Shown here piece by piece: positions 2,096-60,714 of a stretch of DNA of 64,000 bases. The stretch comes from Salinilacustrithrix flava (GTDB lineage Bacteria; Actinomycetota; Acidimicrobiia; Acidimicrobiales; Salinilacustritrichaceae). Where the stretch lies: contig JAMYFF010000006.1 of assembly GCA_024128875.1 (NCBI GenBank), forward strand, positions 1-64,000, read 5' to 3'. The stretch's first letter is position 1, and each line of letters begins with the position of its first letter. Made by a program: the position numbers and the translations under genes. The notes under the pieces are model-generated. The model saw nothing but the letters and a program-made list of their open reading frames with translations. It was not told the origin of the DNA and made no database searches.

Positions 2096-2530
2096 TCACT
2101 TCGGCGTGCAGATGATGACCGGGATCTCCCGGTCGGTGCGCTGCTCGTACCCGGCGTAGCCCTTGTAGCTCTGGACGATGCGGGGCCACAGCGCAGCGCG
2201 CTCGTCGCCGGTGGCCTCGCGGGCCACCGCGTCGAACGTGCGGCCGCCCATCGTGATCGTCACCTCCGGGTCGGCCTTCAGGTTGAGGTACCACGCCGGA
2301 TGGCGGTCGTCGCCGCCCTTCGACGCGACGAGGACGATGTCGCCGTCCTCCTGGATCGGGGCGGTGAGCATCGAGGACCGGCGCTGCCCCGACTTCCGTC
2401 CCGTCGTCTCCAGGATGAGGGCCGGCATCCCCGCCACCGTGCCGCCCAACCGCCCCTTGGTCGCCTCGAACAGGTTGCGGTGCACCACGTTCGCGATCTT
2501 GAAGCCGGCGTCGATCAGGGCGTTCTTCAC
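2096..2530 (-). CDS. Deazaflavin (F420)-dependent nitroreductase family protein
   Basis: A 144-aa single-domain protein of the DDN/Rv3547-like split-barrel family, which uses reduced F420 to reduce quinones or nitro compounds. Family hallmarks are RKSGQRR followed by the beta-strand LTAPI, the DIVLVASKGG segment, HPAWYLNL, the ADPEVTI strand and the C-terminal TDREIPVI. The GTG at 2530 is preferred: TACGCT ends 6 nt upstream, fitting the leaderless pattern of this genome. Longer in-frame extensions run antisense into the divergent alanine dehydrogenase gene. The substrate is unknown. Confidence 0.88.
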   Translation of the reverse strand: MKNALIDAGFKIANVVHRNLFEATKGRLGGTVAGMPALILETTGRKSGQRRSSMLTAPIQEDGDIVLVASKGGDDRHPAWYLNLKADPEVTITMGGRTFDAVAREATGDERAALWPRIVQSYKGYAGYEQRTDREIPVIICTPK

Positions 2531-2642
2531 GACCGCAGCGTAGGTGCCCCCGCCGGTGGGGCCGGGCGGGACCCGTCGAGCTCCGTCATGCAGCGGCCTG
2601 TCGGCACCCGTACCGTGTCGAAGACCACCAAGGGGGCAGTGC

Positions 2643-3761
2643 ATGAGGGTCGGGACACCCACGGAGACCAAGACAGCCGAGCGACGGGTCGGGCTGACGC
2701 CAGTGAGCGTCCGTGAGCTGGCCGCCCACGGCCACGAGGTGCTCGTGCAGTCGGGGGCGGGCGCCGGCATCGGGGCCAGCGACGAGGAGTACGTCGGTGC
2801 CGGGGCGACGATCGTCGACACGGCGGCAGAGGTCTTCGAGGCCGAGCTGATCGTGAAGGTCAAGGAACCGCAGGCGCCGGAGCGGGCGATGCTGCGTCGC
2901 GACCACATCCTGTTCACCTACCTCCACCTCGCACCGGACCCGGCCCAGACCGACGACCTCGTGGCGAGCGGCGCGGCGTGCATCGCCTACGAGACCGTCA
3001 CCGACGACCACGGCCACCTGCCGCTGCTGGCCCCGATGTCGAAGGTCGCCGGCCGCATGTCGGTCCAGGCCGGCGCCAACTGGCTCGAGTCCGCCCACGG
3101 CGGGGCCGGCATCCTCCTGGGCGGTGTCCCCGGCGTCGCCCCGGCGGAGGTGACGGTCATCGGCGGCGGCGTCGTCGGCGAGAACGCCATCCAGATGGCG
3201 GTCGGCCTCGGCGCCAACGTCACGGTGCTCGACAAGGCTCCCGCCGTCCTCGACCGGCTCGACGCCCGCTTCCCGGCGATCACCACCGTGCACTCCACCC
3301 GGGCTGCGCTGGAGCACCACGTGGTGGGCAGCGACCTGGTCATCGGCGCGGTGCTGGTGCCGGGCGCGATGGCCCCGAAGCTGGTGACCGCCGAGATGGT
3401 GAAGCAGATGCGACCGGGGTCGGTGCTCGTCGACGTGGCCATCGACCAGGGCGGGTGCTTCGAGACGTCGCGCCCCACCACCCACGACGACCCCGCCTAC
3501 CTCGTCGACGGCGTCGTCCACTACTGCGTGGCCAACATGCCCGGCGCGGTTGCCCGCACCTCGACCCACGCACTCAACAACGTGACGCTGCCCCACGTGC
3601 TGGCCCTCGCCGACCTCGGGCTCGAGGGTGCGCTGGCGGCGGATCCGCACCTGCGCCGGGGGCTGAACGTGCTCGACGGCCAGATCACCGAACCGGCCGT
3701 CGCCGAGGCGCTGTCGCGTCCCCACGTCCCGGCCGAGAACGCGCTGCGCGCACGCCGCTGA
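2643..3761 (+). CDS. ald: Alanine dehydrogenase
   Basis: A 372-aa NAD-dependent L-alanine dehydrogenase, interconverting alanine and pyruvate plus ammonium in the cytoplasm. The N-terminus [20 protein letters not shown] is the family signature. KVKEP carries the substrate lysine (about residue 75), FTYLHLA the catalytic His, and [15 protein letters not shown] the Rossmann loop. The tail contains [15 protein letters not shown] and [10 protein letters not shown], both characteristic. The length equals the family norm. The start is supported by AAGGGGG before ATG; a TACCGT -10 at 2611-2616 suggests a 20-nt leader. It shares a 112-bp divergent region with the F420-type reductase. Confidence 0.97.
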
Positions 3762-3768
3762 CCCGCTG

Positions 3769-4998: not shown

Positions 4999-5036
4999 GA
5001 TGTGCAGTCTGGACGACGGCGCGACACCCTTGCCGG

Positions 5037-6628: not shown

Positions 6629-6682
6629 TCGCCGCTACACCAGCACTGCCAGAACGGGTTGGGGTGCTGCGAGACTGTCCCG

Positions 6683-7273: not shown

Positions 7274-7306
7274 GCGACCGGGGCGAGTGCACCCGAGGCG
7301 CGATCG

Positions 7307-8490: not shown

Positions 8491-8542
8491 CCGGGCGACA
8501 AACCCATCGACGCCGGAAGGCACGGTCCGTACGCTCGCTCGC

Positions 8543-11398
8543 GTGCGAGCGCGAGTGCAGGTCCTCGGAGCGGTCGCCGTGATCGTCGACGACGAGACCA
8601 GGGCGATCTCGAGCCCCAGCCAGCGTGTCGTCCTGTCCGTCCTCGCCGCTCGAGCCGAACGAGACGTCCCCACCGACCTCCTCGTCGACGCGCTCTGGCC
8701 CGAGGGGCCGCCCCGCACGGCGGTGAGCTCGCTGCGGACCTACGTGTCGAGGCTGCGGGGGCTGCTCGGGGACGCCCTGGTCGGGACGCCCGGCAGCTAC
8801 CGGTTGGCGCTCGAGGGGGTGGCGCTCGATCTGGCGGACTTCGAGCTGCTCCTCGACGATGCCGCGACAGCGGCTCCCGGTGCGGCGCTCGATCTCATCG
8901 ACGAGGCCCTGGCCATGTGGCGAGGACCGCCGTTCGGCGACGTGGGCGACGTCGAGCCGGTCCGGCCCGTCACGGCGCGGCTGGAGGAGCGGTGGGTGAC
9001 GGCGCGCGAGGACCGGGCGGCCGCGCTGCTGGCGTGCGGTCGGGCGGCGGATGCGGTCGCGACGGCGGAGGAGCTGGTCGCCGACCACCCGCTGCGGGAG
9101 CGCACGTGGGCCGTGCTCGTCGAGGCGCTGACCGCCACGGGCCGCTCGACCGAGGCGCTGCGCGCCTACCACCGGGCGGTGGAGGCGCTGGCCGAGGCCG
9201 GCCTCGAGCCGGCGTCCGAGCTCCGTCGGGCCGAGGCGGTGGCGCTCGAGGGTGAGGTCGCGGCACCGGCCCGGCGCCGCGTGGTGCTGCCGGCCTCGTC
9301 GTTCGTGGGGCGCGACCGGGACCGCGAGGAGCTGGCCCGGCTGTCGGCGGCCTGGCCGCTCGTCACGCTCACCGGGCCGGGCGGTGTCGGCAAGACCCGC
9401 CTCGCCCGCACCGTCGCCGCCGACATCGAGCACCGCTTCTCGGCCGGTGTCCGCTCGATCGAGCTCGCCGGCGTGGACGACGGTGGCCAGGTCGCTGCCG
9501 TGGTCGCCGACGGGCTGGGGCTCGTCGTCGGCGCCGAGGGCCCGCTCTCGGCCCTGGATGCGGTGGGGGACCTCGACGTGCTGGTGCTCATCGACAACTG
9601 CGAGCACGTCGTCGGCGCGGTCGCGGACCTGGTCGGCCGGCTCGCTGCCGGTGGGCGGCGGCTGCGCGTCATCGCCACGAGCCGGGAGCCGCTCGCGGTC
9701 GACGGCGAGCAGCTGTGGCCGGTCGACCCGCTCCCCGTGACGGGCCCGTCCGGCGGCGTGCAGCTGTTCGTCGACCGGGTTCGGGCCGCCCGACCCGACT
9801 TCGCGACGGACGAGGAGGCGCTCGGCCTGATCGCCGGGATCGTCAGGCAGCTCGACGGTCTCCCGCTCGCGATCGAGATGGCGGCGGCCGCCGCCGGCAC
9901 GATGCCGCTGGCGATGCTCCACGACCGACTGGAGGGCGAGCTCGAGCTGCCCCCGCTCAAGCGGCGCGACCTGGACGAGCGGCAGCGGACGTTGAAGGCG
10001 CTGCTCGACTGGTCGCTGCGACTGCTCGACGACGAGGGCCGTGCGATGTTCGGCTCCCTGTCGGTGTTCGCCGGCCCGGTCACCGCGGGCGACATCGCCC
10101 ACGTGTCGGGCGTCGCGTCGCCCTTCGAGGTCCTCTGCCGCCTGGTCGACCTCTCCCTCCTCCAGGTGGACGTGACGGGGGAGGAGCCGCACTTCCGCAT
10201 GCTGCGCACCGTCCGCCAGCGCGCCTGCGACGCCGCCGGCGCCGACCTCGAGGTGCTCCGGACCCGACACGCTGCCTGGCTCCTCGATGCCGTGACCGAC
10301 GCCGATCGCCGGCTCCGCGGTCCGGACGAGCGCCGGGCCCACGATCGCCTCGAGCGCCTCCTCGACGATGCCCGCACCGCCGTGGCCTGGGCGCGCGAGC
10401 ACGACCAGGTCTGCGCCGTGGGGCTCGTGGGTCGGCTCTTCCTGTACGCCCAGTCCCGCCTGCGGGACGAGGTGCTCGGCTGGGCGGCCGAGGTCGTGGA
10501 GCACGCGCCGGGGTCGCTGTCGGGCACCGACGGTGAGCTCGCGCTCGCCGCCGCCGCCCAGCGGGCGATCAACGGCGGCGACCTGGAGCGGGCCCGCCGG
10601 CTCATCGACCGGGCCGTCGACCTGAACGACTCGACCGCCGACCCGCTCGTGTACGAGCTGCTCTCCGACGTCCTCCTCTTCGGCGGCGACACCGCACCGG
10701 CACGTGAGGCGGCGCGCATCGGGCTGGCTACGGCGTCGGCCGCCGGCGACGCGCACGGCGTCGTCGCGTGCCTCACCGGCGTGGTGCTGGCCGATGCCTA
10801 TGCCGGTGAGCACCAGGCGGCGGCTCGCGCCATGGCGGAGTTCGCCGAGCCACCGGAGCTGGCGCCCTCCGATCGGGCCTGGCTCCACTACGTCGAAGGC
10901 GAGCGGTTGCTCGACCTCGACCCCGAGCCGGCCCTCGCCGCGCTCCACCGGGCCATCGCCGCCGCCGACGACGTCGGCAACGCCTACATCGCCGCCGTGG
11001 CCCGGGTCTCGTACGCATCCGTGCTCTCGCGCACCGGCGACCCGTCAGCGGCCCGGGCGCCCTTCGCCGAGCTCATCGCCCACTGGCGCTCCCACGGTGA
11101 CCGGACCCACCTGCTGACCACGCTGCGGAACCTCGTCACCGTGCTCGACCGGCTCCACATGGCCGAGCGCGCCGCCGAGCTGCTCGGCGCGGTCCTCGAC
11201 GACGCCGTGGCGCCCAGCTTCGGTGCCGAGCGGGCGATGCTCGAGAACCTGCTCGACCGCCAGGAGCGCACGCTCGGGCCCGCCGAGCTGGCCCGCCGCA
11301 TGGACGCCGGGCGGGCGCGCTCGATCGACGAGGCCGCCCGGCTGGCGCAGGCGTGGCTGGACGAACCCACGCCGGCACGGGACGGCGGGCGTTGGTAG
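8543..11398 (+). CDS. AfsR/SARP-family regulator with NB-ARC-type ATPase and TPR region
   Basis: A 951-aa cytoplasmic transcription regulator. Residues 1-90 form an OmpR/PhoB-type winged helix (SSPSQRVVLSVLAARAERDV; TYVSRLRGLLGD), and about 95-235 the bacterial transcriptional activation domain (RWVTAREDRAAALLACGR; RAYHRAVEALAEAGLEP). A STAND/NB-ARC-like ATPase follows, with P-loop LTGPGGVGKTRLA (about 275-287), Walker B VLVLIDNCEH and GLPLAIEMAA. The C-terminal third is helical repeat. Start GTG 8543 lies in a 16-bp palindrome (8536-8551), with TACGCT ending 7 nt upstream; GTG 8555 is the alternative. Such proteins usually activate specialised metabolism, and the divergent methyltransferase is the obvious local target. 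The TAG stop doubles as part of the -10 of the next gene. Confidence 0.9.
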   Translation: MRARVQVLGAVAVIVDDETRAISSPSQRVVLSVLAARAERDVPTDLLVDALWPEGPPRTAVSSLRTYVSRLRGLLGDALVGTPGSYRLALEGVALDLADFELLLDDAATAAPGAALDLIDEALAMWRGPPFGDVGDVEPVRPVTARLEERWVTAREDRAAALLACGRAADAVATAEELVADHPLRERTWAVLVEALTATGRSTEALRAYHRAVEALAEAGLEPASELRRAEAVALEGEVAAPARRRVVLPASSFVGRDRDREELARLSAAWPLVTLTGPGGVGKTRLARTVAADIEHRFSAGVRSIELAGVDDGGQVAAVVADGLGLVVGAEGPLSALDAVGDLDVLVLIDNCEHVVGAVADLVGRLAAGGRRLRVIATSREPLAVDGEQLWPVDPLPVTGPSGGVQLFVDRVRAARPDFATDEEALGLIAGIVRQLDGLPLAIEMAAAAAGTMPLAMLHDRLEGELELPPLKRRDLDERQRTLKALLDWSLRLLDDEGRAMFGSLSVFAGPVTAGDIAHVSGVASPFEVLCRLVDLSLLQVDVTGEEPHFRMLRTVRQRACDAAGADLEVLRTRHAAWLLDAVTDADRRLRGPDERRAHDRLERLLDDARTAVAWAREHDQVCAVGLVGRLFLYAQSRLRDEVLGWAAEVVEHAPGSLSGTDGELALAAAAQRAINGGDLERARRLIDRAVDLNDSTADPLVYELLSDVLLFGGDTAPAREAARIGLATASAAGDAHGVVACLTGVVLADAYAGEHQAAARAMAEFAEPPELAPSDRAWLHYVEGERLLDLDPEPALAALHRAIAAADDVGNAYIAAVARVSYASVLSRTGDPSAARAPFAELIAHWRSHGDRTHLLTTLRNLVTVLDRLHMAERAAELLGAVLDDAVAPSFGAERAMLENLLDRQERTLGPAELARRMDAGRARSIDEAARLAQAWLDEPTPARDGGRW

Positions 11399-11408
11399 CG
11401 TTTCTCCC

Positions 11409-11765
11409 ATGCCGAGCGAAGAGGGGGCCGACCGGGACGGCTGGGGCGACGTCGTCCCGTTCCCGGGCAAGCACCGCGACGACGAGGTGCGTCGCGACGT
11501 CGGGCTGCGAGAGCTGATCGGCGAGATCCTGCGCGAGGAGCGGCATCACCAGGAGCGCACGCTCGCCGATGTCGCCGAGGCCGCCGCGGTCTCGCTGCAG
11601 TACCTCTCCGAGGTCGAGCGCGGCCGCAAGGACGTGTCCTCCGAGCTGCTCGGTGCGATGCACGAGGCCCTCGGCCTCGACCTGGCCGACGTCCTCGAGC
11701 GGGCGACCCGACGGCTACACGTCCGGTCGCAGGGCGGTGGCGGGCTCCGCATGCTCGCCGCCTGA
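11409..11765 (+). CDS. clgR: XRE-family regulator, ClgR-like
   Basis: A 118-aa protein with a single helix-turn-helix domain (about residues 36-95). The segment [18 protein letters not shown] followed by GLDLADVLE matches the recognition helix and tail of actinobacterial ClgR, the activator of clpP1P2 and other Clp genes. Two clpP genes lie immediately downstream on the opposite strand, and the two 3' ends overlap by 51 nt, which supports the assignment. TAGCGT (11396-11401) ends 7 nt before the ATG with no Shine-Dalgarno, suggesting a leaderless transcript whose -10 overlaps the SARP stop codon. That ClgR regulates this clpP pair is inferred from family and position. Confidence 0.82.
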
Positions 11766-12955: not shown

Positions 12956-12993
12956 GGGCCGAGTGTGTCGCCCGGCCGAGCCCGTCGGACCCG

Positions 12994-15501: not shown

Positions 15502-15514
15502 TGCCAACTTGGCA
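15502..15514. promoter_or_regulatory. 13-bp palindrome just before the P450 gene
   Basis: TGCCAA-C-TTGGCA is a perfect palindrome ending 10 nt before the P450 GTG start and overlapping the expected -10 (CAGGAT at 15513-15518) by two bases. A repressor bound here would block the promoter. The cognate regulator is not evident in the window. Confidence 0.45.
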
Positions 15515-15524
15515 GGATGGGCCG

Positions 15525-16712
15525 GTGAGCACGATCCAGCCCCCCGTCACCATCGACCTGCGCGACCCCGAGTTCTGGCGGACCCGGCAGCACGAGGCGT
15601 GGACGTGGGCCCGGGCCAACGACCCCGTGCACTGGGACGAGGCCAACCAGCTGTGGGCGATCACCCGCCACGCCGACGTCCAGCACGTGGAGCGCCACTC
15701 CGAGGTGTTCTCCTCGCTGCGCACCTACCGCCTCAACGAGACGCCGACCGAGTCGAACATGATCGCCAACGACGACCCGCGCCACCTCCAGCAGCGTCGC
15801 CTCGTCAACCGGGGCTTCACGCCCAAGGCCGTGCGCGAGCAGTCGGCCCAGTTCGAGGCGATGATCGCCGCCATGGTCGATCCGCTCACCCCCCAGGGCC
15901 GCTGCGAGGTCGTCGACGCCATCGCCGGGCAGCTGCCGGCCCGCTTCACCTGCAACCTGCTCGGGCTGCCCGAGGACGAGTGGCGCACGGTGAAGAGCTG
16001 GTCCGAGCGCCTCATGCGCATCGACTCGGTGATGTTCGACCAGGAGGCCATGGCCGGGCTGATGGCAGCCACCATGGAGATCTGGGGGATGGTCGAGGCC
16101 GAGGTGACCGACCTGCGGGGTTGCCCGGCCCACGGGCTCATCTCGACCTGGGCCAACGCCGAGATCGAGGGCGAGCCGCTCTCCCAGGACACGATCTTCA
16201 ACGAGGTCGGCCTGTTCATCGCCGGCGGCGCCGAGACCACCCGCACCGCCATCGCCCACGGGTTGCGCACCTTCTGCGACCACAACGACCAGTGGGAGCT
16301 GCTCCACGACCGCCCCGAGCTCATCCCCTCGGCGGTGGACGAGGTCATCCGCTGGGTCACGCCCCTCAACAACATGTTCCGCAAGGCGACCGAGGACGTC
16401 GAGCTGCGGGGCCGCACGATCAAGGCCGGCGACCGGCTCGCCCTCGTCTACCCGTCGGCGAACCGCGACGAAGACGTGTTCGAGGACCCGTTCACCTTCG
16501 ACGTCACCCGCTCGCCCAACCCGCACGTGGCCTTCGGCTACGGCACCCACTTCTGCCTCGGCGCCAACTTCGCCCGCCGCGAGCTCGAGATCCTGCTGGG
16601 CACGCTCACCCGCGAGTGGACGAACCTGCGGGTCGAGGACGAGATCGACGTCGAGCCCAACATCTTCGCCCCGGCCGTGCGATCGTTCGGACTGGCCTTC
16701 GACGCCCGGTAG
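15525..16712 (+). CDS. Cytochrome P450 (CYP142/CYP125-like)
   Basis: A 395-aa soluble bacterial class I P450. The I-helix AGGAETT is at 233-239, the K-helix ExxR is E273-R276 (EVIR), the aromatic/meander region follows, and the heme loop FGYGTHFCLGANFARRE has the thiolate Cys344. NDDPRHLQQRRLVNRGFTPKAV in the B-C region and the overall layout resemble mycobacterial steroid C26-oxidising P450s (CYP142 type), so a sterol, terpenoid or fatty acyl substrate is plausible. No ferredoxin or reductase gene is adjacent. GTG 15525 is supported by CAGGAT ending 6 nt upstream. A small palindrome overlaps the promoter. Confidence 0.93.
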   Translation: MSTIQPPVTIDLRDPEFWRTRQHEAWTWARANDPVHWDEANQLWAITRHADVQHVERHSEVFSSLRTYRLNETPTESNMIANDDPRHLQQRRLVNRGFTPKAVREQSAQFEAMIAAMVDPLTPQGRCEVVDAIAGQLPARFTCNLLGLPEDEWRTVKSWSERLMRIDSVMFDQEAMAGLMAATMEIWGMVEAEVTDLRGCPAHGLISTWANAEIEGEPLSQDTIFNEVGLFIAGGAETTRTAIAHGLRTFCDHNDQWELLHDRPELIPSAVDEVIRWVTPLNNMFRKATEDVELRGRTIKAGDRLALVYPSANRDEDVFEDPFTFDVTRSPNPHVAFGYGTHFCLGANFARRELEILLGTLTREWTNLRVEDEIDVEPNIFAPAVRSFGLAFDAR

Positions 16713-16723
16713 CGTCGATGGGG

Positions 16724-17063: not shown

Positions 17064-18611
17064 TCAGGCGGTCCGGACCCGGTCGTCGAGGGCGGGGAAG
17101 CCGTCGAGGTACTCGGTGCGCTCCCGGCGCAGCCGCTCGACCAGCTCCCGGTACTCGTCGTCCCGGCCCTGGCGCTCGTACAGGCGGCGGGGCTGGAGCA
17201 GCTCGGCATCGTCGATGCCGGGGATCGACGTGGCGACGTCGTAGCCGAAGTCCGGGTCGGTCTCCCACTCGATCGTGCCGTCGACGATGCCGGCCTGCAC
17301 CGCGGCCGACACGTCGATCGAGACCTTCTTGGACCGGTCGTCGTCGGCGTCGCCTCCCACCCGGCCGGTGTTGAGCAGGTACACCTCGAGCGGGTGCTGC
17401 TCGAGGAGCTCCAGCAGCCGGTTGGCCTGGGAGGCGTCGTCTTCGAACCAGAACGGGTTCGTGCCGGGCACCCGGAGCCGCTTGCCCGCCTCGGCCGCCC
17501 CGCCGGCGCTCGTCCCCTTGGTCTCGCCCAGCATGAAGTAGTGCGCAGCCTGCTCGGGCCGGAGGCGGGCCACGGCGGGGATGATGTCCTCGTTGCGGTT
17601 CAGGATGAACAGGTACTTGGCCTTCGGCAGGTCGCGCGGATCCCGGTGGCGGATGTCGGCGAGGGGGAACGTGACCCGGCCGTTGGCCGTGTAGCGGTCG
17701 TCGAAGAAGTCGATCTGCTTGGTGATCGGATCGATGCGGGTGTTCTCCAGCCACGCCTCGGGGTCGATCGCGCCGCCGTGGATGGTGGGCTCGTCCTCGG
17801 CGTCGAGGCCGTAGGTCTTCGCGAAGCACCCGTTCTCGGTGGCGTGCACGGTGCCGTCGGGCATGAGGGCGATGAAGTCGTCCTGCACCGGCAGCGAGCC
17901 CTTCACCTCGCGGAACGTGGTGGTCGTCTTGCCCGTGCCCGACAGGCCGATGATCAGGGCCAGCTCCTCCTCGCCCGAGCCGGTCTCCTCGGCGGGGAAG
18001 ACCTTGGCGCCGGAGTGCATGGCCAGGCCGCCGCGCTCGTGGACCAGGTGGTTCCACATGCGCAGGCCGCCCATCTTGGACTCGCCGAAGTAGTCGGAGC
18101 CGAACACCCGGGTGACGTAGTTGTCGAGGTCCACGGCGATGAGCCGGTCGTTGGGCTGGCCCGGCGCCAGGAGGCCGGGCGTGTAGATCACCGTGAACCC
18201 CCCGTCGGCGTGCTCCTCGTCGAAGGCGGCTTCGTCCTCGACCGGGAAGTACAGCTGCTGCTGCATCGCCGGGATGTTGGAGCTCTTGCGCTCGATGAAG
18301 AGGCGCACGGGCGTGCGGAAGTCGGGATCCGGGCCGATGTAGCCCTCGATGAGCACCATGTCCTGGTCGGCGATGAACGCGTCCTGCTCCTCGGCCCACT
18401 GCTCGTACTCGGCGCGCGACATGGTCGGCTTGCCCGTCGGCTGGTCGGACACGAACGCGGTCGACGGCGCGAGTCGGGCGGTGACCATCGTCGTGTAGCC
18501 GATGTTGCCGTGCTCGCTGACCTGCACGCGGGACATGTGGGCCAGGACCCAGTCGCGCAGCTGCTCCTGGGAGGGGTTGCGGGTGACCGAGGCGGCGGTG
18601 GGGAGGGTCAT
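17064..18611 (-). CDS. pckA: Phosphoenolpyruvate carboxykinase (ATP-type fold, divergent)
   Basis: A 515-aa PEP carboxykinase, converting oxaloacetate plus nucleotide triphosphate to PEP and CO2 in gluconeogenesis. The kinase-1a P-loop GLSGTGKTTTT and ENGCFAKTYGL place it in the ATP-utilising PckA family rather than the GTP family usual in actinobacteria. It is divergent near the C-terminus: HYFMLGETKGTSAGG replaces the canonical segment after the adenine-binding region. ATG 18611 follows GAGGG-like purines, although a longer in-frame extension exists. It is likely in one transcript with the upstream gamma-carbonic anhydrase (25-nt gap), which could supply or remove bicarbonate. It converges on DUF3039 across a large palindrome. 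Confidence 0.88.
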   Translation of the reverse strand: MTLPTAASVTRNPSQEQLRDWVLAHMSRVQVSEHGNIGYTTMVTARLAPSTAFVSDQPTGKPTMSRAEYEQWAEEQDAFIADQDMVLIEGYIGPDPDFRTPVRLFIERKSSNIPAMQQQLYFPVEDEAAFDEEHADGGFTVIYTPGLLAPGQPNDRLIAVDLDNYVTRVFGSDYFGESKMGGLRMWNHLVHERGGLAMHSGAKVFPAEETGSGEEELALIIGLSGTGKTTTTFREVKGSLPVQDDFIALMPDGTVHATENGCFAKTYGLDAEDEPTIHGGAIDPEAWLENTRIDPITKQIDFFDDRYTANGRVTFPLADIRHRDPRDLPKAKYLFILNRNEDIIPAVARLRPEQAAHYFMLGETKGTSAGGAAEAGKRLRVPGTNPFWFEDDASQANRLLELLEQHPLEVYLLNTGRVGGDADDDRSKKVSIDVSAAVQAGIVDGTIEWETDPDFGYDVATSIPGIDDAELLQPRRLYERQGRDDEYRELVERLRRERTEYLDGFPALDDRVRTA

Positions 18612-19204: not shown

Positions 19205-20749
19205 TCACGACGTCGGGACGAGCGCGGTGGTGCGGCGCACGGCGCGGCGCAGCGGTCCGCCGGGCAGGGCGCCGGTGATCCGCCCGATGACGTAGAGCAC
19301 CGGGAAGATCTCGAGGCGGCCGGCCAGCATCATCACCATCAGTAGCCCGCGGGCGGGCCGGGAGAAGTACAGGTAGTTGGACGCCGGACCGGCCTCGCCG
19401 AGCGCCGGGCCCATGTTGCCCATGGCGGAGGTGGCCGCACCCGCGGCCTCGGTGAGGCCGGAGCCGAGGAACGTGAGGGCCAGGCAGCCGACGCCGATGA
19501 AGACGACGTAGAGCAGGGCGTAGCCGATGACGCGCTGCACGATCCGCTCCGGCATCGCGTCCCGGCCCAGCCGCACCGGCAGGACGGCGCGCGGGTGGCG
19601 GATGCGTCGCAGCTCTCGCAGTGCGTGGATCAGGAGCACGCGGGCTCGGACCAGCTTCAGCCCGCCAGAGGTCGAGCCGGCCATCCCGCCCGACACCATG
19701 AGGGCGAGCAGCAGCAGCTGGGTGCCGGGCACCCACTGGACGAAGTCGGCGGTGCCGAACCCGGTCGAGGTGAGCAGCGAGGCGACGTTGAACGTGGCGT
19801 CCCGGAGCGACTTGCCGAAGCCGAGGCCCTGCTGGGTCCACAGCAGCGCCGTGACCGCGGCGGTGAACACGACGAAGACGCCGAGGTAGAAGCGCAGCAG
19901 GGGGGACTCGGCGTAGATGCGGGGTCGGCCCGTGACGGCGCGCCAGTGGAGGGTGAAGCTGGTGGCCGAGACGAGCATGAGGACCACGAGCGCCAGCTCC
20001 ACGGCGACCGAGTCGAAGGCGGCGATCGAGGAGTCGTAGGGGGAGAGGCCGCCGGTGGAGACGGCGGTGAAGGCGTGGGTGACGGCGTCGAAGGGCGACA
20101 TGCCGACCGCCAGCAGCAGGGCGATGGCGGCCACGGTGAGCCCGGCGTACACCTGCCACAGCCGCCGGGCCGTCTCGGAGATGCGCGGGGCGAGGCGATC
20201 CGTGGTCGGCCCCGGCGCCTCGGCGCTGAGCATGTCCATGCCGCCCACGCCGAGGAAGGGCAGGATCGCCACCGCGAGCACGACGATGCCGGTGCCGCCG
20301 TACCACTGGGTGAGGTTGCGCCAGAACAGCACGCCCCGCGGTGCCGCCTCGATCGGTGCGAGCACGGTCGACCCGGTGCCGGTGAAGCCCGAGACCGACT
20401 CGAACAGGGCGTTGTCGATCGAGCCGAAGGTCCCGGTGAGCAGGTACGGGACGGCGCCCGCGATCGACGCGAGGAGCCAGGTGCTGCCGACGGCGACGAA
20501 GGTGGCCGACGCCGTCATCTTCGCCGGCACCTCGGTGCCCCGCCACAGCACGAACCCGGCCACCGCCACGATGCCGGCGGCCAGCATCATCGCCGGGGTC
20601 TCGTCGCCCCCGGCCCCGAGCTCGACGAGCGCGGAGACGATGATGCCGGCGGCGACGAAGAGCATGGCGGCGCCGCCCACGTGGGCGCTGAGGCTGGGCC
20701 AGCGGCGCGACGGCGTGCGGAAGCTCGTCGTCGCGTCACCGCCGATCAA
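19205..20749 (-). CDS. trkH: Potassium uptake protein TrkH
   Basis: A 514-aa K+ translocating subunit in the cytoplasmic membrane. The four selectivity-filter loops are visible: SVSGFTGTGSTVL, AVSTGGLSPYD, LTSTGFGTADF and SAMGNMGPALGEAG. SQTxGG-type features include WYGGTGIVVLAVAILPFLGVGGM. I chose TTG 20749: it overlaps the fur/zur stop (TTGA) and has an excellent Shine-Dalgarno, GGGGGAGG, 6 nt upstream. The next in-frame ATG is too far inside. No trkA regulatory partner lies in the window. Co-transcription with a metal-responsive repressor is unusual and worth noting. Confidence 0.92.
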   Translation of the reverse strand: MIGGDATTSFRTPSRRWPSLSAHVGGAAMLFVAAGIIVSALVELGAGGDETPAMMLAAGIVAVAGFVLWRGTEVPAKMTASATFVAVGSTWLLASIAGAVPYLLTGTFGSIDNALFESVSGFTGTGSTVLAPIEAAPRGVLFWRNLTQWYGGTGIVVLAVAILPFLGVGGMDMLSAEAPGPTTDRLAPRISETARRLWQVYAGLTVAAIALLLAVGMSPFDAVTHAFTAVSTGGLSPYDSSIAAFDSVAVELALVVLMLVSATSFTLHWRAVTGRPRIYAESPLLRFYLGVFVVFTAAVTALLWTQQGLGFGKSLRDATFNVASLLTSTGFGTADFVQWVPGTQLLLLALMVSGGMAGSTSGGLKLVRARVLLIHALRELRRIRHPRAVLPVRLGRDAMPERIVQRVIGYALLYVVFIGVGCLALTFLGSGLTEAAGAATSAMGNMGPALGEAGPASNYLYFSRPARGLLMVMMLAGRLEIFPVLYVIGRITGALPGGPLRRAVRRTTALVPTS

Positions 20750-21186
20750 CTGCTGCCTCCCCCGGGCCGGCACCGCCGGCACCAACCGGTGAGGGCGAAG
20801 TGGCGCAGGTCCAGCTGGAACCCGAATCGGTCGTCGACGGCCCTGGCGAAGGGGTCGGTGACAGCGCAGTCGATCTCGAGCACGGCACCGCACCCGTTGC
20901 AGACGACGTGCGAGTGCTCGTCGTCGGCGAGGTGGAACTCGGCCGGGCCGTGGCCGAGGTGGACGTGGGTGACGATGCCCAGCTCGGTCAGCAGGTCCAG
21001 GGTCCGGTAGATGCTCGAGTGGCTGACGTCCGGATGGCGGGCCTGCACGCGAGCATGGAGGGTCTCGGCGGTGACGTGCGAACCGACCTCGACCAGTGCC
21101 TCGACCACGGCACGACGGGGCGCGGTGATGCGGACGCCTCGATGGCGGAGCTGGTCGACCAGGTCGTCCGCGGTCGCAGCAGCCAT
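20746..21186 (-). CDS. Fur-family metalloregulator (probably Zur)
   Basis: A 146-aa Fur-superfamily repressor. The winged helix spans about residues 10-80 (APRRAVVEALVEVG; SHSSIYRTLDLLTELGIV). The hinge and dimer domain carry metal ligands HLADDEHSHVVCNGCG, with structural Zn site Cys96/Cys99 and Cys136/Cys139 (GWCRRC). It is divergent from a Zn/Mn-type ABC importer (87-bp gap), so Zur or a Mn regulator is more likely than Fur proper. TACTGT (21198-21193) ends 6 nt before the ATG, giving a leaderless start. No perfect 9-1-9 Zur box was found in the intergenic region by eye. Confidence 0.9.
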   Translation of the reverse strand: MAAATADDLVDQLRHRGVRITAPRRAVVEALVEVGSHVTAETLHARVQARHPDVSHSSIYRTLDLLTELGIVTHVHLGHGPAEFHLADDEHSHVVCNGCGAVLEIDCAVTDPFARAVDDRFGFQLDLRHFALTGWCRRCRPGGGSS

Positions 21187-21192
21187 CTCCGG

Positions 21193-21265
21193 ACAGTAGC
21201 GACCGCCCCGGTCACCTCCGGCCCCTGGGGGCGCGTGTTGAGAACAGGTTGCAGGTGGCTATCGT
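21193..21265. promoter_or_regulatory. Divergent promoters of zur-like and metal ABC genes
   Basis: Minus strand: TACTGT (21198-21193) lies 6 nt from the repressor ATG. Plus strand: TTGAGA (21238-21243), a 16-bp spacer, and TATCGT (21260-21265), 8 nt from the binding-protein ATG. Both starts would therefore be leaderless. The plus-strand promoter is the only one here with a recognisable -35 at proper spacing. Confidence 0.6.
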
Positions 21266-21273
21266 CCGCATCC

Positions 21274-22290
21274 ATGACGAGACCTCGCCTGCTGGCCCCG
21301 CTCGCCCTGCTGCTGCCGCTGGCCCTCCTCGCCGGTGCGTGCGGCGGTGACGACGACGCGGCCGGATCCGACGGCGACGGGGACGACCGGCTGGTCGTGG
21401 TCACGACGGTGAGCCCGATCACGTCGATCGCCGCCGATGTCATCGGCGACCTCGCCCGGATCCAGGGGGTCGTCCCCGAGGGCACCAACTCCCACACCTT
21501 CGAGCCCAGCCCGTCGGTGTCGGAGGTGCTCGAGGGTGCCGACGTGGTGTTCGCCAACGGCCTCCAGCTCGAGGAGCCGACGCTGGCGCTCGCCCGCGAC
21601 GTGGCGGGGGACGCCACCATCGTGGAGCTCGGCGACCTCATCGTCAGCCCGGACGACTACCTCTACGACTTCTCGTTCCCGGAGGACGAGGGCAAGCCCA
21701 ACCCCCACCTGTGGACCGACCCGACCCTCGCCAAGGGCTACGCCCGCTACATCGCCGACACGATGAGCGAGGTCGACCCGGACAACGCGGCGACCTACGA
21801 GGCCAACCGGGCCGAGTTCGACGGGATCGTCGACGAGCTCGACGCCGCCCTGCGCACCGCCCTGGACACCGTGCCCGAGGACAACCGCAAGCTCGTGACC
21901 TACCACGACGCCTACGCCTACTGGGCCCGGACCTACGGCTGGACGGTCGTGGGGGCGGTGCAGCCCGAGGACTTCGGCGACCCCTCGCCCCGCGCCGTGG
22001 CCGACCTGGTCGACCAGATCCGGGCCGAGGGCGTCCCGGCCGTGTTCGGCTCCGAGGTCTTCCCGTCCCCCGTGCTGGAGACGATCGCCGAGGAGGCCGG
22101 CGCCGAGTACGTCGCCGACCTCCGCGACGACGACCTCCCGGGCGAGCCCGGCGACGAGGACCACAGCTGGCTGGCCCTGATGCGCTCCAACTACGCCACC
22201 ATCGTCGAGGTCCTCGGCGGTGACCCCGAGGCGCTCGAGCAGCTCGAGCTGCGCCGGGTCGGGCCCGATACCGCGGATTATCCGCAGTGA
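21274..22290 (+). CDS. Metal ABC transporter substrate-binding lipoprotein (ZnuA/MntC-like)
   Basis: A 338-aa cluster A-I solute-binding protein for Zn2+ or Mn2+. The signal peptide ends in a lipobox, LLAGAC, with lipid-anchored Cys23. An acidic Gly/Asp linker follows. Metal-ligand candidates are His in TNSHTFEPSP, His in PNPHLWTDP, His in TYHDAYAYW and the acidic residue in GSEVFPSP, in the canonical order. No long His-rich loop (typical of ZnuA) is present, so Mn2+ is also possible. It is the first gene of a three-gene importer operon divergent from the Fur-family repressor. Confidence 0.92.
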   Translation: MTRPRLLAPLALLLPLALLAGACGGDDDAAGSDGDGDDRLVVVTTVSPITSIAADVIGDLARIQGVVPEGTNSHTFEPSPSVSEVLEGADVVFANGLQLEEPTLALARDVAGDATIVELGDLIVSPDDYLYDFSFPEDEGKPNPHLWTDPTLAKGYARYIADTMSEVDPDNAATYEANRAEFDGIVDELDAALRTALDTVPEDNRKLVTYHDAYAYWARTYGWTVVGAVQPEDFGDPSPRAVADLVDQIRAEGVPAVFGSEVFPSPVLETIAEEAGAEYVADLRDDDLPGEPGDEDHSWLALMRSNYATIVEVLGGDPEALEQLELRRVGPDTADYPQ

Positions 22291-22311
22291 AACATCGGTA
22301 GCGTCGCTCCG

Positions 22312-23088
22312 GTGACCCCGCTCCTCACGCTCGAGGGAGTCGCCGCCGGCTACGGCGACGGGTCCGTCATCACCGGGGTCGACCTCCAGATCGATCGCGG
22401 CGACTTCGTCGGCATCGTCGGGCCGTCCGGTTCGGGCAAGTCCACGTTGCTGCGCGTGCTGCTCGGGAGCGTCCCGGCGAGCGCGGGGCGGCTCGAACGG
22501 CCCGGCGGCACGCGCCTCGGCTACGTGCCCCAGGTCGAGCAGATCGACTGGGACTTCCCGGTCACCGTCGCCCAGTGCGTGCTGATGTCCCGGGTCCGGG
22601 GCCGGCTGCTGCCGTGGGCCTCGAAGGCGGAGAAGGCCGACGTGGCCCGGGTGCTGGACCGCCTCGGCATCGGCGAGCTCGCCGGCCGCCACATCCGCGC
22701 CCTCTCCGGCGGCCAGCAGCAGCGGGTGTTCCTCGCGCGCGCCCTGCTCGCCGAGCCGGACCTGCTGCTGCTCGACGAGCCCACGTCGGGGGTGGACGTG
22801 CGCACCCGGCACGAGATCCTCCACCTGCTCGGGGAGCTCCACGACGGCGGGCTCGGCATCGTCCTGACGACCCACGACCTCAACGGCATCGCCGCCCACC
22901 TGCCTCGGTTGGTCTGCCTGAACAAGGAGGTCATCGGCGCCGGCGCCCCCCACGAGGTGCTCGTCCCGTCGGTGCTCGAGGCCACCTACGGCTCCCCCAT
23001 GGAGGTGCTCGAGCACGGCGGCATGCGCGTCGTCGTCGACGTCCCGAGCGAGGCGCAGATCATCCAGCTCCGGGACCGCAGCGCGTGA
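22312..23088 (+). CDS. Metal ABC transporter ATP-binding protein
   Basis: A 258-aa ABC ATPase of the Mn/Zn/Fe importer group. Walker A is GPSGSGKST, the Q-loop is VPQVEQIDWDFPVTV, a hallmark of the ZnuC/MntB family, the signature is LSGGQQQR, Walker B is LLLLDEP and the switch His is in TTHD. It energises uptake by the permease encoded next. GTG 22312 has TAGCGT (22299-22304) ending 7 nt upstream, which could add a second promoter inside the operon. Its stop overlaps the permease start as GTGA. Confidence 0.94.
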   Translation: MTPLLTLEGVAAGYGDGSVITGVDLQIDRGDFVGIVGPSGSGKSTLLRVLLGSVPASAGRLERPGGTRLGYVPQVEQIDWDFPVTVAQCVLMSRVRGRLLPWASKAEKADVARVLDRLGIGELAGRHIRALSGGQQQRVFLARALLAEPDLLLLDEPTSGVDVRTRHEILHLLGELHDGGLGIVLTTHDLNGIAAHLPRLVCLNKEVIGAGAPHEVLVPSVLEATYGSPMEVLEHGGMRVVVDVPSEAQIIQLRDRSA

Positions 23089-23936: not shown

Positions 23937-23955
23937 CCGGGACTAGCGTTCCGGC

Positions 23956-28496: not shown

Positions 28497-28516
28497 GGGC
28501 CGGACGGTACCTCTGT

Positions 28517-29881: not shown

Positions 29882-29946
29882 GTCGTTGCTCCTTTGTTCG
29901 TCCGGAGCCAGGGCACTACCCGGACCGGCGGCCGTACAGTCCGGGC

Positions 29947-34700: not shown

Positions 34701-34720
34701 AGGCTACTTCGACGTATGGT
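34701..34720. promoter_or_regulatory. Closely spaced divergent -10 elements
   Basis: Minus strand TAGCCT (34706-34701) lies 8 nt before the flippase ATG; plus strand TATGGT (34715-34720) lies 8 nt before the hydrolase GTG. The two -10s are only 8 bp apart, so RNA polymerase could not occupy both at once. Confidence 0.5.
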
Positions 34721-38275: not shown

Positions 38276-38297
38276 GACCCCACGGTACGGCAGGAGG

Positions 38298-38996: not shown

Positions 38997-39035
38997 GCGC
39001 CCCCGACGCTACGGGCCGTGGATCAGAGTGGTGCG

Positions 39036-39608: not shown

Positions 39609-43948
<4,340 letters not shown>

Positions 43949-51040: not shown

Positions 51041-51123
51041 GGTGCCCCGAGCCTACGGCGCTGCTGGTCGACGGTGCCCTCGCGCTGCCGACCGCCTCCG
51101 GCCCGGCTGGCATGCTGGCCGCC

Positions 51124-52302: not shown

Positions 52303-52318
52303 GGGCGGTGGTGCAGCT

Positions 52319-52552
52319 TCAGGAGGGGTCGTCGTCGACCAGGTCGGCGGTGGCGTCCTCGACGGCGGTGCGGGCGGCCAGGATGCGGCCCCGGCACCAG
52401 TCGATGAGCTGCGCCGCCCGCCGGACCCGCTCGGCCAGGACGTCGACGTCCACGTCCACGTCCTCGATCTCCCGGAGGATGGACTCCAGCTCGGTGACCG
52501 CCTCGCCGTAGCCGGCGGGCTCCCGGTCGTCAGGGGCGTCGGTCGAGCTCAT
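52319..52552 (-). CDS. xseB: Exodeoxyribonuclease VII small subunit
   Basis: A 77-aa helical small subunit of exonuclease VII, which degrades single-stranded DNA with XseA. YGEAVTELESILREIEDVDVDVDVLAERVRRAAQ-like helical pattern matches XseB, ending in WCRGRILAAR. Its ATG overlaps the xseA stop (ATGA), the usual xseA-xseB order. Confidence 0.92.
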   Translation of the reverse strand: MSSTDAPDDREPAGYGEAVTELESILREIEDVDVDVDVLAERVRRAAQLIDWCRGRILAARTAVEDATADLVDDDPS

Positions 52553-53886
52553 GGCCCGCCATCGTGGTCGACGCGCTCGACGCGGACGTGGAGGGTGCCG
52601 TCGCCGACCCGCACCGACAGGACGTCCCCGACCGCCACGTCGTCGACGGAGCGGACGATGCCGCGATCGTCGCGCCGGGCGATCGACCACCCGCGGGACA
52701 GCACGTGCACGGGGTCGAGCAGATCGGCTCGGGTCGCCAGCACCTCCAGGCGGGAGGCGGCGTCGTCGACGCGCCGGCGGGAGGTGGCGACGAGCCGGCG
52801 GGCGGCCTCGTCCAACCGGCGGTCAGCGCCGTCGAGCACTGAGGTCGCGCTCCGTGCGAGGCGGACGGCGGCGTCGTCGATGCGGCCCTGCTCGCGGTGG
52901 GCCGCGGTGCGCGCCGCGAGCGCAGCGCGGCCCCGGGACCGGTCCAGGTGGGCGTCGGCCCGGTCGAGCACCTGGGTCGCCCGGACCGCGACCCGCTGCC
53001 AGGCGTGCTCGGCCCGCTCCAGCGCGCCGGCCACCAGCCCGACGACGTGCTGGGCGGCCGCCGTGGGGGTCTTGGCCGCGGTGTGGGCGACGGCGTCGGC
53101 GACCGAGCGGTCGACCTCGTGGCCGATGCCGGTGATGACCGGCTTCCCGGCGGCGGCGATGGCCCGGGCCACGAGCTCGCTGTCGAAGGCGGCCAGGTCG
53201 GTCGCCGCCCCACCACCGCGCGCCACCAAGACCACGTCGACCCGGGTGCGGGCCAGGCCGGTGATGGCGCCGGCGACCGCCCCCGGCGCCTCCGGGCCCT
53301 GGACCCGGACGTCGGCGCGGGTGATCTCGAACGCGAACCCGGATCGGCGCAGCTCGTCGAGCACGTCTGCCTCCGCCGCGCTCCCGGCCGAGGTCACCAG
53401 CCCGATCCGCAGCGGCGCGAGCGCGAGCGGCACGAGGGAGTTGGCGTCGACGAGGCCCTCGGCGCGGAGCCGGTCGAGCAGCTCGGCACGGGCGGCAGCC
53501 AGCTGGCCGAGCGTGAAGGCGGGGTCGATCGAGGTCATCTGCAGCTGCAGCTGGCCCCGGGGGCCGTACCAGTCGAGCCGGCCCCGGATCCGCACCTCGG
53601 TGCCGTCGGTCATCCGGACCCGGTCCCCGCCCCGGAGCAGCAGCCGGTTGACGCGGACGCGGTTCGTCGACGAGAGCATCACCGACAGCTGGGCGGTGAC
53701 GTCTCCGTCGGCGTCGCGGAGGGTGAAGTACACGTGGTTCGAGCGAGCCCGGGTGAGGTCGTGGATCTCGCCCCGCACCCACACCTCGCCGGGGAAGGCG
53801 GCGCGCAACCGGTCGCCGATCGCCTCGGACAGCTCGCCGACGGACCAGGTCGTGGTCCCCGGCGCAGCATCGGGTGAGTCGGCCAC
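52549..53886 (-). CDS. xseA: Exodeoxyribonuclease VII large subunit
   Basis: A 445-aa catalytic subunit. The N-terminal OB-fold has VWVRGEIHDLTRARSNHVYFTLRD; the catalytic part shows RIGLVTSAGSAAEADVL, VVLVARGGGAATDLAAFDSE and PVITGIGHEVDRSVADAVAHTAAKTPTAAA, all conserved. A coiled-coil region (about 270-370) binds XseB. It acts on single-stranded DNA in repair. GTG 53886 has TACCGT (53899-53894) at 7 nt, and the same 49-bp gap must also serve the divergent thiolase. Confidence 0.95.
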   Translation of the reverse strand: MADSPDAAPGTTTWSVGELSEAIGDRLRAAFPGEVWVRGEIHDLTRARSNHVYFTLRDADGDVTAQLSVMLSSTNRVRVNRLLLRGGDRVRMTDGTEVRIRGRLDWYGPRGQLQLQMTSIDPAFTLGQLAAARAELLDRLRAEGLVDANSLVPLALAPLRIGLVTSAGSAAEADVLDELRRSGFAFEITRADVRVQGPEAPGAVAGAITGLARTRVDVVLVARGGGAATDLAAFDSELVARAIAAAGKPVITGIGHEVDRSVADAVAHTAAKTPTAAAQHVVGLVAGALERAEHAWQRVAVRATQVLDRADAHLDRSRGRAALAARTAAHREQGRIDDAAVRLARSATSVLDGADRRLDEAARRLVATSRRRVDDAASRLEVLATRADLLDPVHVLSRGWSIARRDDRGIVRSVDDVAVGDVLSVRVGDGTLHVRVERVDHDGGP

Positions 53887-53934
53887 GGCTCCGACGGTAC
53901 TGTCGGCGGCCGTTCCCGAGCCGAGGAGGGCCCC

Positions 53935-55231: not shown

Positions 55232-55246
55232 TGAAAGCATCTCCGG

Positions 55247-55930: not shown

Positions 55931-55976
55931 CCGTGCGGTTCCGGCCGAGCCGGTCCCTTACGCGAGGATGGTCCCG

Positions 55977-58239: not shown

Positions 58240-58249
58240 GGCGGCGGCC

Positions 58250-59422: not shown

Positions 59423-59500
59423 TGTTCCAGCCCGCCGCCATCACTGTGAGCGACGGTGAATCTACGCCACGTGGGGTGCTGGCGTGAACCTGCCAGTTCC

Positions 59501-60673
59501 TCAGGTGGTGTAGTCGGCGTTGATGCGCACGTAGCCGTCGGTGAGGTCGCAGCCGTAGACCGTGGCGCTGGCTCCGTCCCCGCCGGGGGCGACCCCGAGC
59601 GAGACGTGGATGGTGACCTCGTCGCCCTCGAGGTGCTCGACCAGGGCATCGAGGTCGGCCTCGCTGGCCGGCTTCGGGTACAGCTCCCGGCCGCCGATGC
59701 GGATGGTGACGGCCCGCTGATCGATGTCGGCGTCGTCGCTGCACTTGCCCACCGCCATGGCGATGCGACCCCAGTTCGGGTCGGCGCCGTGCACCGCCGT
59801 CTTCACCAGCGGGGAGTTGACGATGGCCTTGGCCACCCGCTTGGCCTGGGCGTGGTCGCGGGCCTCGTCGACCGTGACGACCACGAGGGTCTCGGCCCCC
59901 TCCCCGTCGGCGGCGAGCTGCCGGGTGAGATCCAGGCAGACCTCGTGGAGGGCGACCTCGAGGTCGGCGTCGTCCACCGGCCCGGCGAGGCCGCTCGCCA
60001 GCACGGCCGCCGTGTCGGAGGTCGAGGTGTCGGTGTCCACGGACAGGGCGTTGAACGTCCGCTCCACGACCGCCCGGAACGTCCGGTCGAGCACGGCGGC
60101 GTCGACCTCGGCGTCGGTGAGCACGAAGGCGAGCATCGTGGCCATGTCGGGCTCGATCATGCCGACCCCCTTGGCGATCCCCACCACGCTCGCCTCGCCA
60201 CCGGTGGACGTCGCCAGGGTGGCCCGGGCCGTCTTCGGGTGGGTGTCGGTGGTCATGATCGCCTCGGCGACGGCATCGGCATCCGTGGACCGGGGTGCGG
60301 GCATCGACGCCAGGTGCTGACGGATGCGGTCCATCGGGTACCGGCGGCCGATCACCCCGGTGGAGGCGACGAGCACGTCGGTGGGTTCGCAACCGAGGGC
60401 GTGGGCGACCCCCTCGACCAGCTCGAGCGCGTCGGCGTCGCCGTCGGGCCCGGTGGCCACGTTGGCGTTCTTGGACACGACCACCACCGCCTGGAGGCGC
60501 CCGTCACCTGCGTGCCCCCGGGACAGGGTGACGCTCGGCCCGGAGAAGCGGGAGCGGGTGAACACCGCGGCCGCCGAGCAGGGTCGCTCGGCGGCGATGA
60601 CGGCGAAGTCGGTGGTGTCGTCCTTGATCCCGACGTTGGCGGTGTGGGCCCGGAAGCCGGCAGGGAGCTGCAC
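59501..60673 (-). CDS. argJ: Bifunctional ornithine acetyltransferase / N-acetylglutamate synthase
   Basis: A 390-aa ArgJ of the arginine pathway. The self-cleavage site is MATMLAF, where Thr becomes the N-terminal nucleophile of the beta chain, within KGVGMIEPDMATML. SKNANVATG, STGVIGR and the AVHGADPNWGRI segment are family signatures. It transfers acetyl from N-acetylornithine to glutamate. No other arg gene is adjacent, so it stands alone. GTG 60673 has CAGACT ending 7 nt upstream. Confidence 0.95.
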   Translation of the reverse strand: MQLPAGFRAHTANVGIKDDTTDFAVIAAERPCSAAAVFTRSRFSGPSVTLSRGHAGDGRLQAVVVVSKNANVATGPDGDADALELVEGVAHALGCEPTDVLVASTGVIGRRYPMDRIRQHLASMPAPRSTDADAVAEAIMTTDTHPKTARATLATSTGGEASVVGIAKGVGMIEPDMATMLAFVLTDAEVDAAVLDRTFRAVVERTFNALSVDTDTSTSDTAAVLASGLAGPVDDADLEVALHEVCLDLTRQLAADGEGAETLVVVTVDEARDHAQAKRVAKAIVNSPLVKTAVHGADPNWGRIAMAVGKCSDDADIDQRAVTIRIGGRELYPKPASEADLDALVEHLEGDEVTIHVSLGVAPGGDGASATVYGCDLTDGYVRINADYTT

Positions 60674-60714
60674 GGCGCCGAGTCTGGCACCACCTGCGGG
60701 AGAAGCCTCCAGGC

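Follow-up and report, generated by a model that had tools for sequence, protein, structure and literature searches.

Introduction

In actinobacteria, the hexamer TAnnnT was described upstream of start codons, at a distance of about 12 nt and with no Shine-Dalgarno (SD) sequence, for 86 of 89 genomes, in which it precedes around 20% of genes (Zheng et al. 2011, PMC3160421). In Mycobacterium tuberculosis, TANNNT serves as the -10 element with no conserved -35, 26% of the genes with a primary transcription start site (TSS) are leaderless, ATG and GTG are used alike and C is favoured at position -1 of the start sites (Cortes et al. 2013, PMC3898074). Leaderless transcription is predicted for 21.6% of bacterial species, in which it is reported to account for as much as 40% of transcripts (PMC9581028). 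The string "Acidimicrobi" is absent from the main text of PMC3160421, and a literature search returned no report on leaderless genes in Acidimicrobiia, the class appearing in the portions of text available only in a table of anti-SD types. Here, TAnnnT hexamers upstream of start codons were analysed in Salinilacustrithrix flava (Acidimicrobiia, Acidimicrobiales). The starting point was a stretch of 64,000 nt (the window), which is the first 64 kb of contig 25 (JAMYFF010000006.1) of a 4.10 Mb genome in 28 contigs and has a GC content of 70–75% by 4-kb block. A sequence-only reading of this DNA had proposed widespread leaderless promoters with a fixed spacing between the -10 element and the start codon.

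The rarity of such motifs inside genes has also been reported. TANNNT is rare in all three frames of mycobacterial coding DNA, which Hegelmeyer et al. (2023, PMC10653884) interpreted as a way of avoiding transcription from within genes. More generally, Froula and Francino (2007, PMC1939733) found -10 motifs to be avoided in the coding DNA of 24 of 42 genomes and to be enriched in regulatory DNA, and Yona et al. (2018, PMC5906472) found them to be avoided in the coding DNA of E. coli.

Results

Position of TAnnnT relative to start codons

Genes were called with our own gene finder, in which starts were picked by coding score and a start-codon prior only, blind to the upstream sequence; 62 genes were found in the window. 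An independent sample of the same genome (G000), 20 stretches of 20 kb each, was taken outside of what the earlier reader had seen, and the window and sample together comprised 464 kb. Genes were divided into transcript-heading (lead), intermediate and operon-internal (overlapping or abutting a co-directional gene) classes, and those incomplete at the 5' end, lacking a neighbour in the stretch or lying within 40–80 nt of its end were dropped. Where start ambiguity was allowed, any start not more than 4 nats below the one with the best coding score was counted.

Among 116 divergent genes of the independent sample, TAnnnT was found at spacers of 6–9 nt in 32 (14, 10, 6 and 2 at spacers 6, 7, 8 and 9), at spacers 0–5 in one and at 10–19 in two, whereas only 4 of 77 overlapping or abutting co-directional genes carried it (Fisher p 5e-5 for the difference). 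With start ambiguity allowed, TAnnnT at spacers 6–9 preceded 63 of 205 lead genes (31%), 29 of 105 intermediate and 5 of 95 operon-internal genes of the window and sample, while ten composition-matched decoy motifs averaged 6.8, 2.5 and 0.9, respectively. The window taken alone gave 12/27, 4/18 and 1/16 under the same rule and was thus richer in TAnnnT-headed genes than the rest of the sample (51/178 lead genes, by subtraction). The peak was also present among the genes of the sample with confident starts, 27 of 117 having TAnnnT at spacers 6–8. The positional check by operon position, which the sequence-only reading had put forward, therefore showed a hexamer peaking at 6–9 nt and rare inside operons, and this spacer peak, the decoys and the contrast between gene classes support leaderless-type promoters with a fixed spacing.

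The chance rate of about one gene in a hundred assumed by that reading was about right, as 14 off-position occurrences over 34 positions of 116 genes correspond to ~1.4% per four positions; it rises to 2–3% once any start within 4 nats is admitted. In 183 non-overlapping genes with confident starts, spacers 6–8 held 49 TAnnnT (1.5 expected from other positions), 13 CAnnnT (4.3) and 11 GAnnnT (5.3), and weak nAnnnT and TAnnnn forms likewise exceeded expectation at these spacers. Summing the excess over all near-matches gave a rough estimate of 35–40% of non-overlapping genes being leaderless, which by this estimate lies near the top of the published bacterial range and below a majority. The "dominance" of leaderless promoters claimed for this DNA was accordingly overstated.

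Anatomy of TAnnnT-led genes

The sequences around 69 TAnnnT-led genes of the window and sample (best start only, gaps of ≤10 nt left out) were compared with those of other genes. SD sequences were nearly excluded, an SD 4-mer being found in 2 of 69 cases in comparison with 57 of 239 other genes (Fisher p 1.9e-5), as had been expected from the window. No conserved -35 was detected, no column between -45 and -9 exceeding 0.15 bits. The base preceding the start was C in 54 of the 69. The start codons were ATG in 35, GTG in 33 and TTG in one, and 125, 110 and 4, respectively, in the other genes. The extended consensus TAnCGT suggested earlier did not hold up: it was seen 16 times among the 69 hexamers, with 13.9 expected from the marginals of the middle positions. 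The coupling of genes inside operons through ATGA or GTGA was confirmed, as 11 of 16 overlapping or abutting window genes, and 52 of 95 co-directional gaps of ≤10 nt in the window and sample, were 4-nt overlaps.

Leaderless transcription from promoters with only a -10 element is very probably the best explanation of these hexamers, judged from the DNA sequence. The hexamers would be the -10 elements of promoters of the housekeeping sigma-70 type, presumably recognized by a SigA-like factor, without a clear -35. RNA polymerase would begin transcription some 7 nt downstream of the hexamer, on the first base of ATG/GTG or one to three bases earlier, so that the mRNAs would essentially lack a 5' leader and translation would begin from a 5'-terminal start codon without SD. 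The remaining genes would be SD-led, coupled by 4-nt overlaps or provided with other leaders.

Hexamers of the window

All 25 hexamers listed by the earlier reader were found on the strand and at the position given, with ATG or GTG downstream, and 24 of them were followed, after 6–9 nt, by a candidate start belonging to a called gene. The start was the top-scoring one in 16 of these 24 genes and scored 0.1–3.0 nats lower in the other eight. The spacer is the distance from hexamer to start codon, and G085 and G001 are two other genomes of the genus.

2537–2542 (-): -10 element TACGCT, spacer 6 to GTG 2530, F420H2-dependent quinone reductase family, conserved in G085
8530–8535 (+): -10 element TACGCT, spacer 7 to GTG 8543, BTAD-domain regulator, start 2.1 nats under the best, no orthologous start among the matches listed
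11396–11401 (+): -10 element TAGCGT that overlaps the TAG stop codon of the preceding gene, spacer 7 to ATG 11409, HTH protein of 118 amino acids (aa)
16710–16715 (+): -10 element TAGCGT that overlaps the TAG stop codon of the preceding P450 gene, spacer 8 to ATG 16724, kept in G085 and G001
21193–21198 (-): -10 element TACTGT, spacer 6 to ATG 21186, Fur-family regulator, the longer start being consistent with a domain match that begins at residue 16
21260–21265 (+): -10 element TATCGT, spacer 8 to ATG 21274, ZnuA
22299–22304 (+): -10 element TAGCGT, spacer 7 to GTG 22312, ABC transporter ATPase adjoining ZnuA
23944–23949 (+): -10 element TAGCGT, spacer 6 to ATG 23956, PLD-like protein
28504–28509 (-): -10 element TACCGT, spacer 7 to GTG 28496
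29935–29940 (+): -10 element TACAGT, spacer 6 to GTG 29947, GH38 alpha-mannosidase family, TAnnnT and spacer 6 kept in G001 with diverged flanks
34701–34706 (-): -10 element TAGCCT, spacer 8 to ATG 34692
34715–34720 (+): -10 element TATGGT, spacer 8 to GTG 34729, alpha/beta hydrolase
38282–38287 (-): -10 element TACCGT, spacer 6 to ATG 38275, SH3_3 protein
39006–39011 (-): -10 element TAGCGT, spacer 9 to ATG 38996, spacer 9 kept in G001 (58% aa identity)
40698–40703 (-): -10 element TAGTTT, spacer 7 to GTG 40690, glycosyltransferase family 2
40702–40707 (+): -10 element TACGGT, spacer 7 to ATG 40715, GH2 beta-galactosidase, TA common to 40698–40703 (-), in G001 TACGTT with spacer 7 and a start 3 codons from the aligned place
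51050–51055 (-): -10 element TAGGCT, spacer 9 to ATG 51040, polyprenyl synthetase
53894–53899 (-): -10 element TACCGT, spacer 7 to GTG 53886, exonuclease VII large subunit
5006–5011 (-): weak form CAGACT, spacer 7 to GTG 4998, MFS transporter, singly not significant
5025–5030 (+): weak form CACCCT, spacer 6 to GTG 5037, singly not significant
6671–6676 (+): weak form GAGACT, spacer 6 to ATG 6683, singly not significant
12962–12967 (-): weak form CACACT, spacer 6 to ATG 12955, kept in G085 with changed flanks
15513–15518 (+): weak form CAGGAT, spacer 6 to GTG 15525, P450, kept in G085
51111–51116 (+): weak form CATGCT, spacer 7 to ATG 51124, start 3.0 nats under the best
60681–60686 (-): weak form CAGACT, spacer 7 to GTG 60673, CAGACT in G085 and CACAAT in G001
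1630–1635 (-): TACGCT ending 10 nt upstream of tRNA-Arg 1545–1619 (-)

The weak nAnnnT sites were supported as a class by their excess at the position; the seven taken one by one were not significant, CAnnnT, GAnnnT and AAnnnT together occurring by chance before ~6% of genes per three positions. The window contained 27 TAnnnT on both strands, of which 18 had been listed. Among the nine that had not been, the hexamer at 1630–1635 (-) is the probable promoter of tRNA-Arg.

Two of the sites overlap a TAG stop of an upstream gene (11396 and 16710), as would be expected if the hexamers were a composition or stop-codon artefact, in which the TAG and TAA stops of upstream genes supply the TA. This may apply to a few sites. 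Divergent genes, for which no co-directional stop lies close before the start, showed the strongest peak, and decoys of the same composition stayed low. A stop could supply TA in 3 of the 69 TAnnnT-led genes (29 of them co-directional), which is an undercount due to the exclusion of gaps of ≤10 nt. As a general cause this artefact is refuted, and its chance of accounting for the hexamers is negligible.

The TA common to 40698–40703 (-) and 40702–40707 (+), and a similar arrangement at 53894/53898, raised the question of symmetrical bidirectional -10 elements (AnnnTAnnnT) shared by divergent pairs. Opposed TAnnnT in divergent regions were indeed most often offset by 4, with 7 cases in G000 and 64 over 11 genomes. 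Since TA is self-complementary, an A four bases before any TAnnnT makes the pattern, and 7 among 86 both-strand sites is about what the base composition predicts (an estimate made without a shuffle). Moreover, a start at 6–9 nt was present on both sides in only one of the two window examples. Shared elements of this kind are thus highly improbable.

The gene at 11409–11765 (+), which the coding-score gene finder missed, was recognized from its -10 element. It has a coding score of +28 and matches to HTH_31 and HTH_3, and its substitutions cluster at codon position 3, with 19 of 27 in the main G085 alignment and 40 of 65 in G001; the G085 alignment is interrupted for about 100 bases close to the start and that of G001 has 22 gap columns. 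TAnnnT was kept in both genomes with the spacer one base shorter (6). The gene overlaps the end of its convergent neighbour by ~50 nt.

In the region 20746–23088, the gene for the Fur-family regulator is divergent from that of ZnuA, which is followed by the ABC ATPase gene, and TAnnnT stands 6–8 nt before all three starts, the second transporter gene included. For the exonuclease VII large subunit (52549–53886, -), a search of genome contigs gave 11 relatives, seven of them from Methanoregula/Methanoregulaceae archaea (31–35% identity); the other four came from two acidimicrobia (97% in a metagenome-assembled genome, MAG, deposited as Acidimicrobiaceae, UBA9382, and 58%), Tetrasphaera and a Patescibacteria MAG. 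This archaeal bias may only reflect the pattern-based search. An ATP-type phosphoenolpyruvate carboxykinase is encoded at 17064–18611 (-), and its four top-listed relatives in a plasmid collection are haloarchaeal (31–34% identity over ~90% of the query).

Conservation within the genus

DNA alignments with G085 were obtained for 16 of the 17 TAnnnT-led window genes submitted. None of the 96 hexamer bases was changed, in comparison with 71 of 864 bases of the spacer and upstream sequence (12/115 and 59/749, respectively; p 7e-4). For the more diverged G001, orthologous starts were reached through the proteins: from 24 starts submitted, seven TAnnnT-led orthologues with a start near the aligned place were obtained, the best of up to three listed starts being taken. 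At 58–82% aa identity and with the flanks rewritten, TAnnnT was found 6–10 nt before a start in six of the seven. These conservation counts are small numbers.

Such conservation bears on the possibility that the hexamers are ordinary -10 elements, with the true start codons further downstream and normal leaders. Alternative starts do exist, as seen from the eight of 24 that are not top-scoring, and in one G001 orthologue an SD-like motif precedes a start located further downstream. The peak at 6–9 nt nevertheless arose with starts chosen blind to the upstream sequence and again in the confident-start subset. Leadered promoters would be spread broadly, yet spacers 10–19 are nearly empty, SD sequences are nearly absent, and orthologues retain the hexamer and the start together, once despite an insertion or deletion between them. 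Downstream starts are therefore very unlikely as the general explanation, and leaderless transcription from -10-only promoters remains strongly favoured.

Several observations weigh against leaderless transcription. The starts come from a simple self-made gene finder, whose scores disagree with the listed starts in the cases given above and which missed one gene. TTGACA-like sequences (at least 4/6 matches) were found in the -35 zone of 14 of the 69 TAnnnT-led genes and in a control zone of 6, so a loose -35 is possible at some sites. G085 is a close relative with only 8% of the flanks changed, and the direct DNA alignment with G001 covers one gene only and is not significant (p 0.32). In three of the six G001 genes that retain TAnnnT, the start is displaced by 1, 3 or 6 codons from the position given by the alignment. 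Finally, the G001 orthologue of the alpha/beta hydrolase gene at 34729 starts 39 nt past TATGGT, with an SD-like GGAGG just upstream. The two orthologues apparently represent a switch between a leaderless and a GGAGG-led start within one genus, with TATGGT present in both.

Depletion of TAnnnT in coding DNA

The occurrence of TAnnnT inside genes was compared with a synonymous shuffle keeping the first two bases of each codon and the dinucleotides at codon junctions; genes of ≤300 nt, low-scoring genes and the first and last 60 nt of every gene were excluded. In G000, 22 TAnnnT were seen and 124.5 expected, with the strands pooled (ratio 0.18, interval 0.11–0.27), which is five- to six-fold low. 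TAnnnT was the most depleted of 320 gapped patterns, the next one being AAnnnT at 0.64. The sample without the window gave 15 sense and 6 antisense occurrences against 61 and 44 expected, and genes longer than 900 nt gave 9 and 5 against 52 and 40. In the window alone, one was seen with ~13 expected and 7 in the lowest of 20 shuffles, which are small counts in the same direction. By raw counts, to which no significance is attached, the purge is somewhat stronger on the antisense strand.

Codon usage was rejected as the cause of this rarity, 14 + 5 occurrences being seen in the gene set of this comparison against 163 + 140 in within-gene shuffles and 69 + 50 in pooled shuffles keeping junction dinucleotides. 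Under the junction-keeping null, the control patterns TAnnT, TAnnnnT, TAnnnC and TAnnnG stayed at 0.95–1.09, AAnnnT at 0.65–0.70 and TAnnnA at 0.82–0.83.

The same analysis was applied to ten other actinobacteria, each represented by ten 20-kb stretches. TAnnnT ranked first of the 320 patterns in 9 of the 11 genomes. The ratio of seen to expected was 0.17 in G002 (4 vs 23 only), 0.20 in G006 and 0.42 in G010, all of the same order, 0.41 in the class-mate G032, 0.29–0.49 in G038, G080, G060 and G070, 0.73 in G084 (0.46–1.11; 0.88 by another shuffle) and 0.94 in G051; 28 E. coli coding sequences (CDS), out of 41 CDS rows from 50 kb, gave 0.88 with the same null. The strongest purge was thus found in three of the four genomes sampled from the order, and it is not order-wide in its extreme form because the order-mate G010 is only average.

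Of the 282 TAnnnT on both strands of the 464 kb, 97 were in the leaderless position, 64 were 10–200 nt upstream of a same-strand start, 94 were elsewhere in intergenic and 27 elsewhere in coding DNA. Relative to a dinucleotide model in six genomes, TAnnnT was low in convergent intergenic regions (0.15–0.78, with 1–12 sites each), high in divergent ones in five of the six (1.78–2.41; G038 0.86) and mixed in tandem regions (0.77–2.71). Selection against spurious promoters is the putative cause of the coding purge; a restriction site with this pattern, or a motif bound by another protein, may also be responsible.

Breadth across actinobacteria

Counted by the strict rule, TAnnnT at spacers 6–9 preceded 22% of lead genes in G000, 21% in G002, 21% in G006, 17% in G010 and 16% in G032, then 12–14% in five further actinobacteria and 2% in G060. 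The start-proximal pattern was therefore present in 9 of the 10 other actinobacteria sampled. Leaderless use as the cause of the purge was not supported: G060 has only 2 leaderless heads among 86 and yet a ratio of 0.29, whereas G051 has 10 among 92 and yet 0.94. The leaderless contrast in G051 is weaker than in the others, with 13/92 where the decoys average 5.1, start ambiguity being allowed.

Discussion

The TAnnnT-led genes of S. flava are the known actinobacterial pattern and ordinary in kind. They resemble the TA-led genes of Zheng et al. (2011) in the hexamer itself, the lack of SD and the high GC content, and their share is similar to somewhat higher. With M. tuberculosis they have in common TANNNT without a conserved -35, the equal use of ATG and GTG and C at -1 (PMC3898074); there the evidence is TSS mapping, here the DNA alone. 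About 16,400 TANNNT were counted in the M. tuberculosis genome in that study, in contrast to the 282 on both strands of 464 kb found here at a higher GC content.

The coding depletion of TAnnnT as such is already published, for M. tuberculosis and in general form. What was reported for mycobacteria by Hegelmeyer et al. (2023) is common to both; the present data add an observed/expected ratio of 0.18 from a synonymous null, both strands, 11 actinobacteria and the absence of tracking with leaderless frequency. In comparison with the published avoidance of -10 motifs in E. coli, our E. coli value of 0.88 is far weaker than the 0.18 in G000. A literature search found, among the titles listed, none on a cross-actinobacterial measurement of TANNNT depletion, which does not prove its absence. 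What deserves following up is how strong the purge is in G000 and in two of the three order-mates sampled, and that it is independent of leaderless use.

It is possible, and offered tentatively, that in this Acidimicrobiia lineage a bare TAnnnT without a -35 may start transcription almost anywhere, so that unusually strong selection would have cleared both strands of genes of it, the antisense strand perhaps the more thoroughly, and TAnnnT would be left to mark promoters almost uniquely. How strongly it is purged varies among actinobacteria independently of leaderless use, which would then point to promiscuity of RNA polymerase, silencing or population size and not to translation.

Leaderless use in Acidimicrobiia affects annotation, as several starts change if the -10 element is considered and one small gene was found only through it. 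G060 shows the purge nearly without leaderless starts, while leaderless starts occur in G051 with no purge being detectable and in G084 with a weak purge at best; therefore, the purge and leaderless use can be studied apart. The purge of one gapped motif is a purely genomic read-out of how little sequence RNA polymerase may need, and it can be ranked over thousands of genomes without RNA data.

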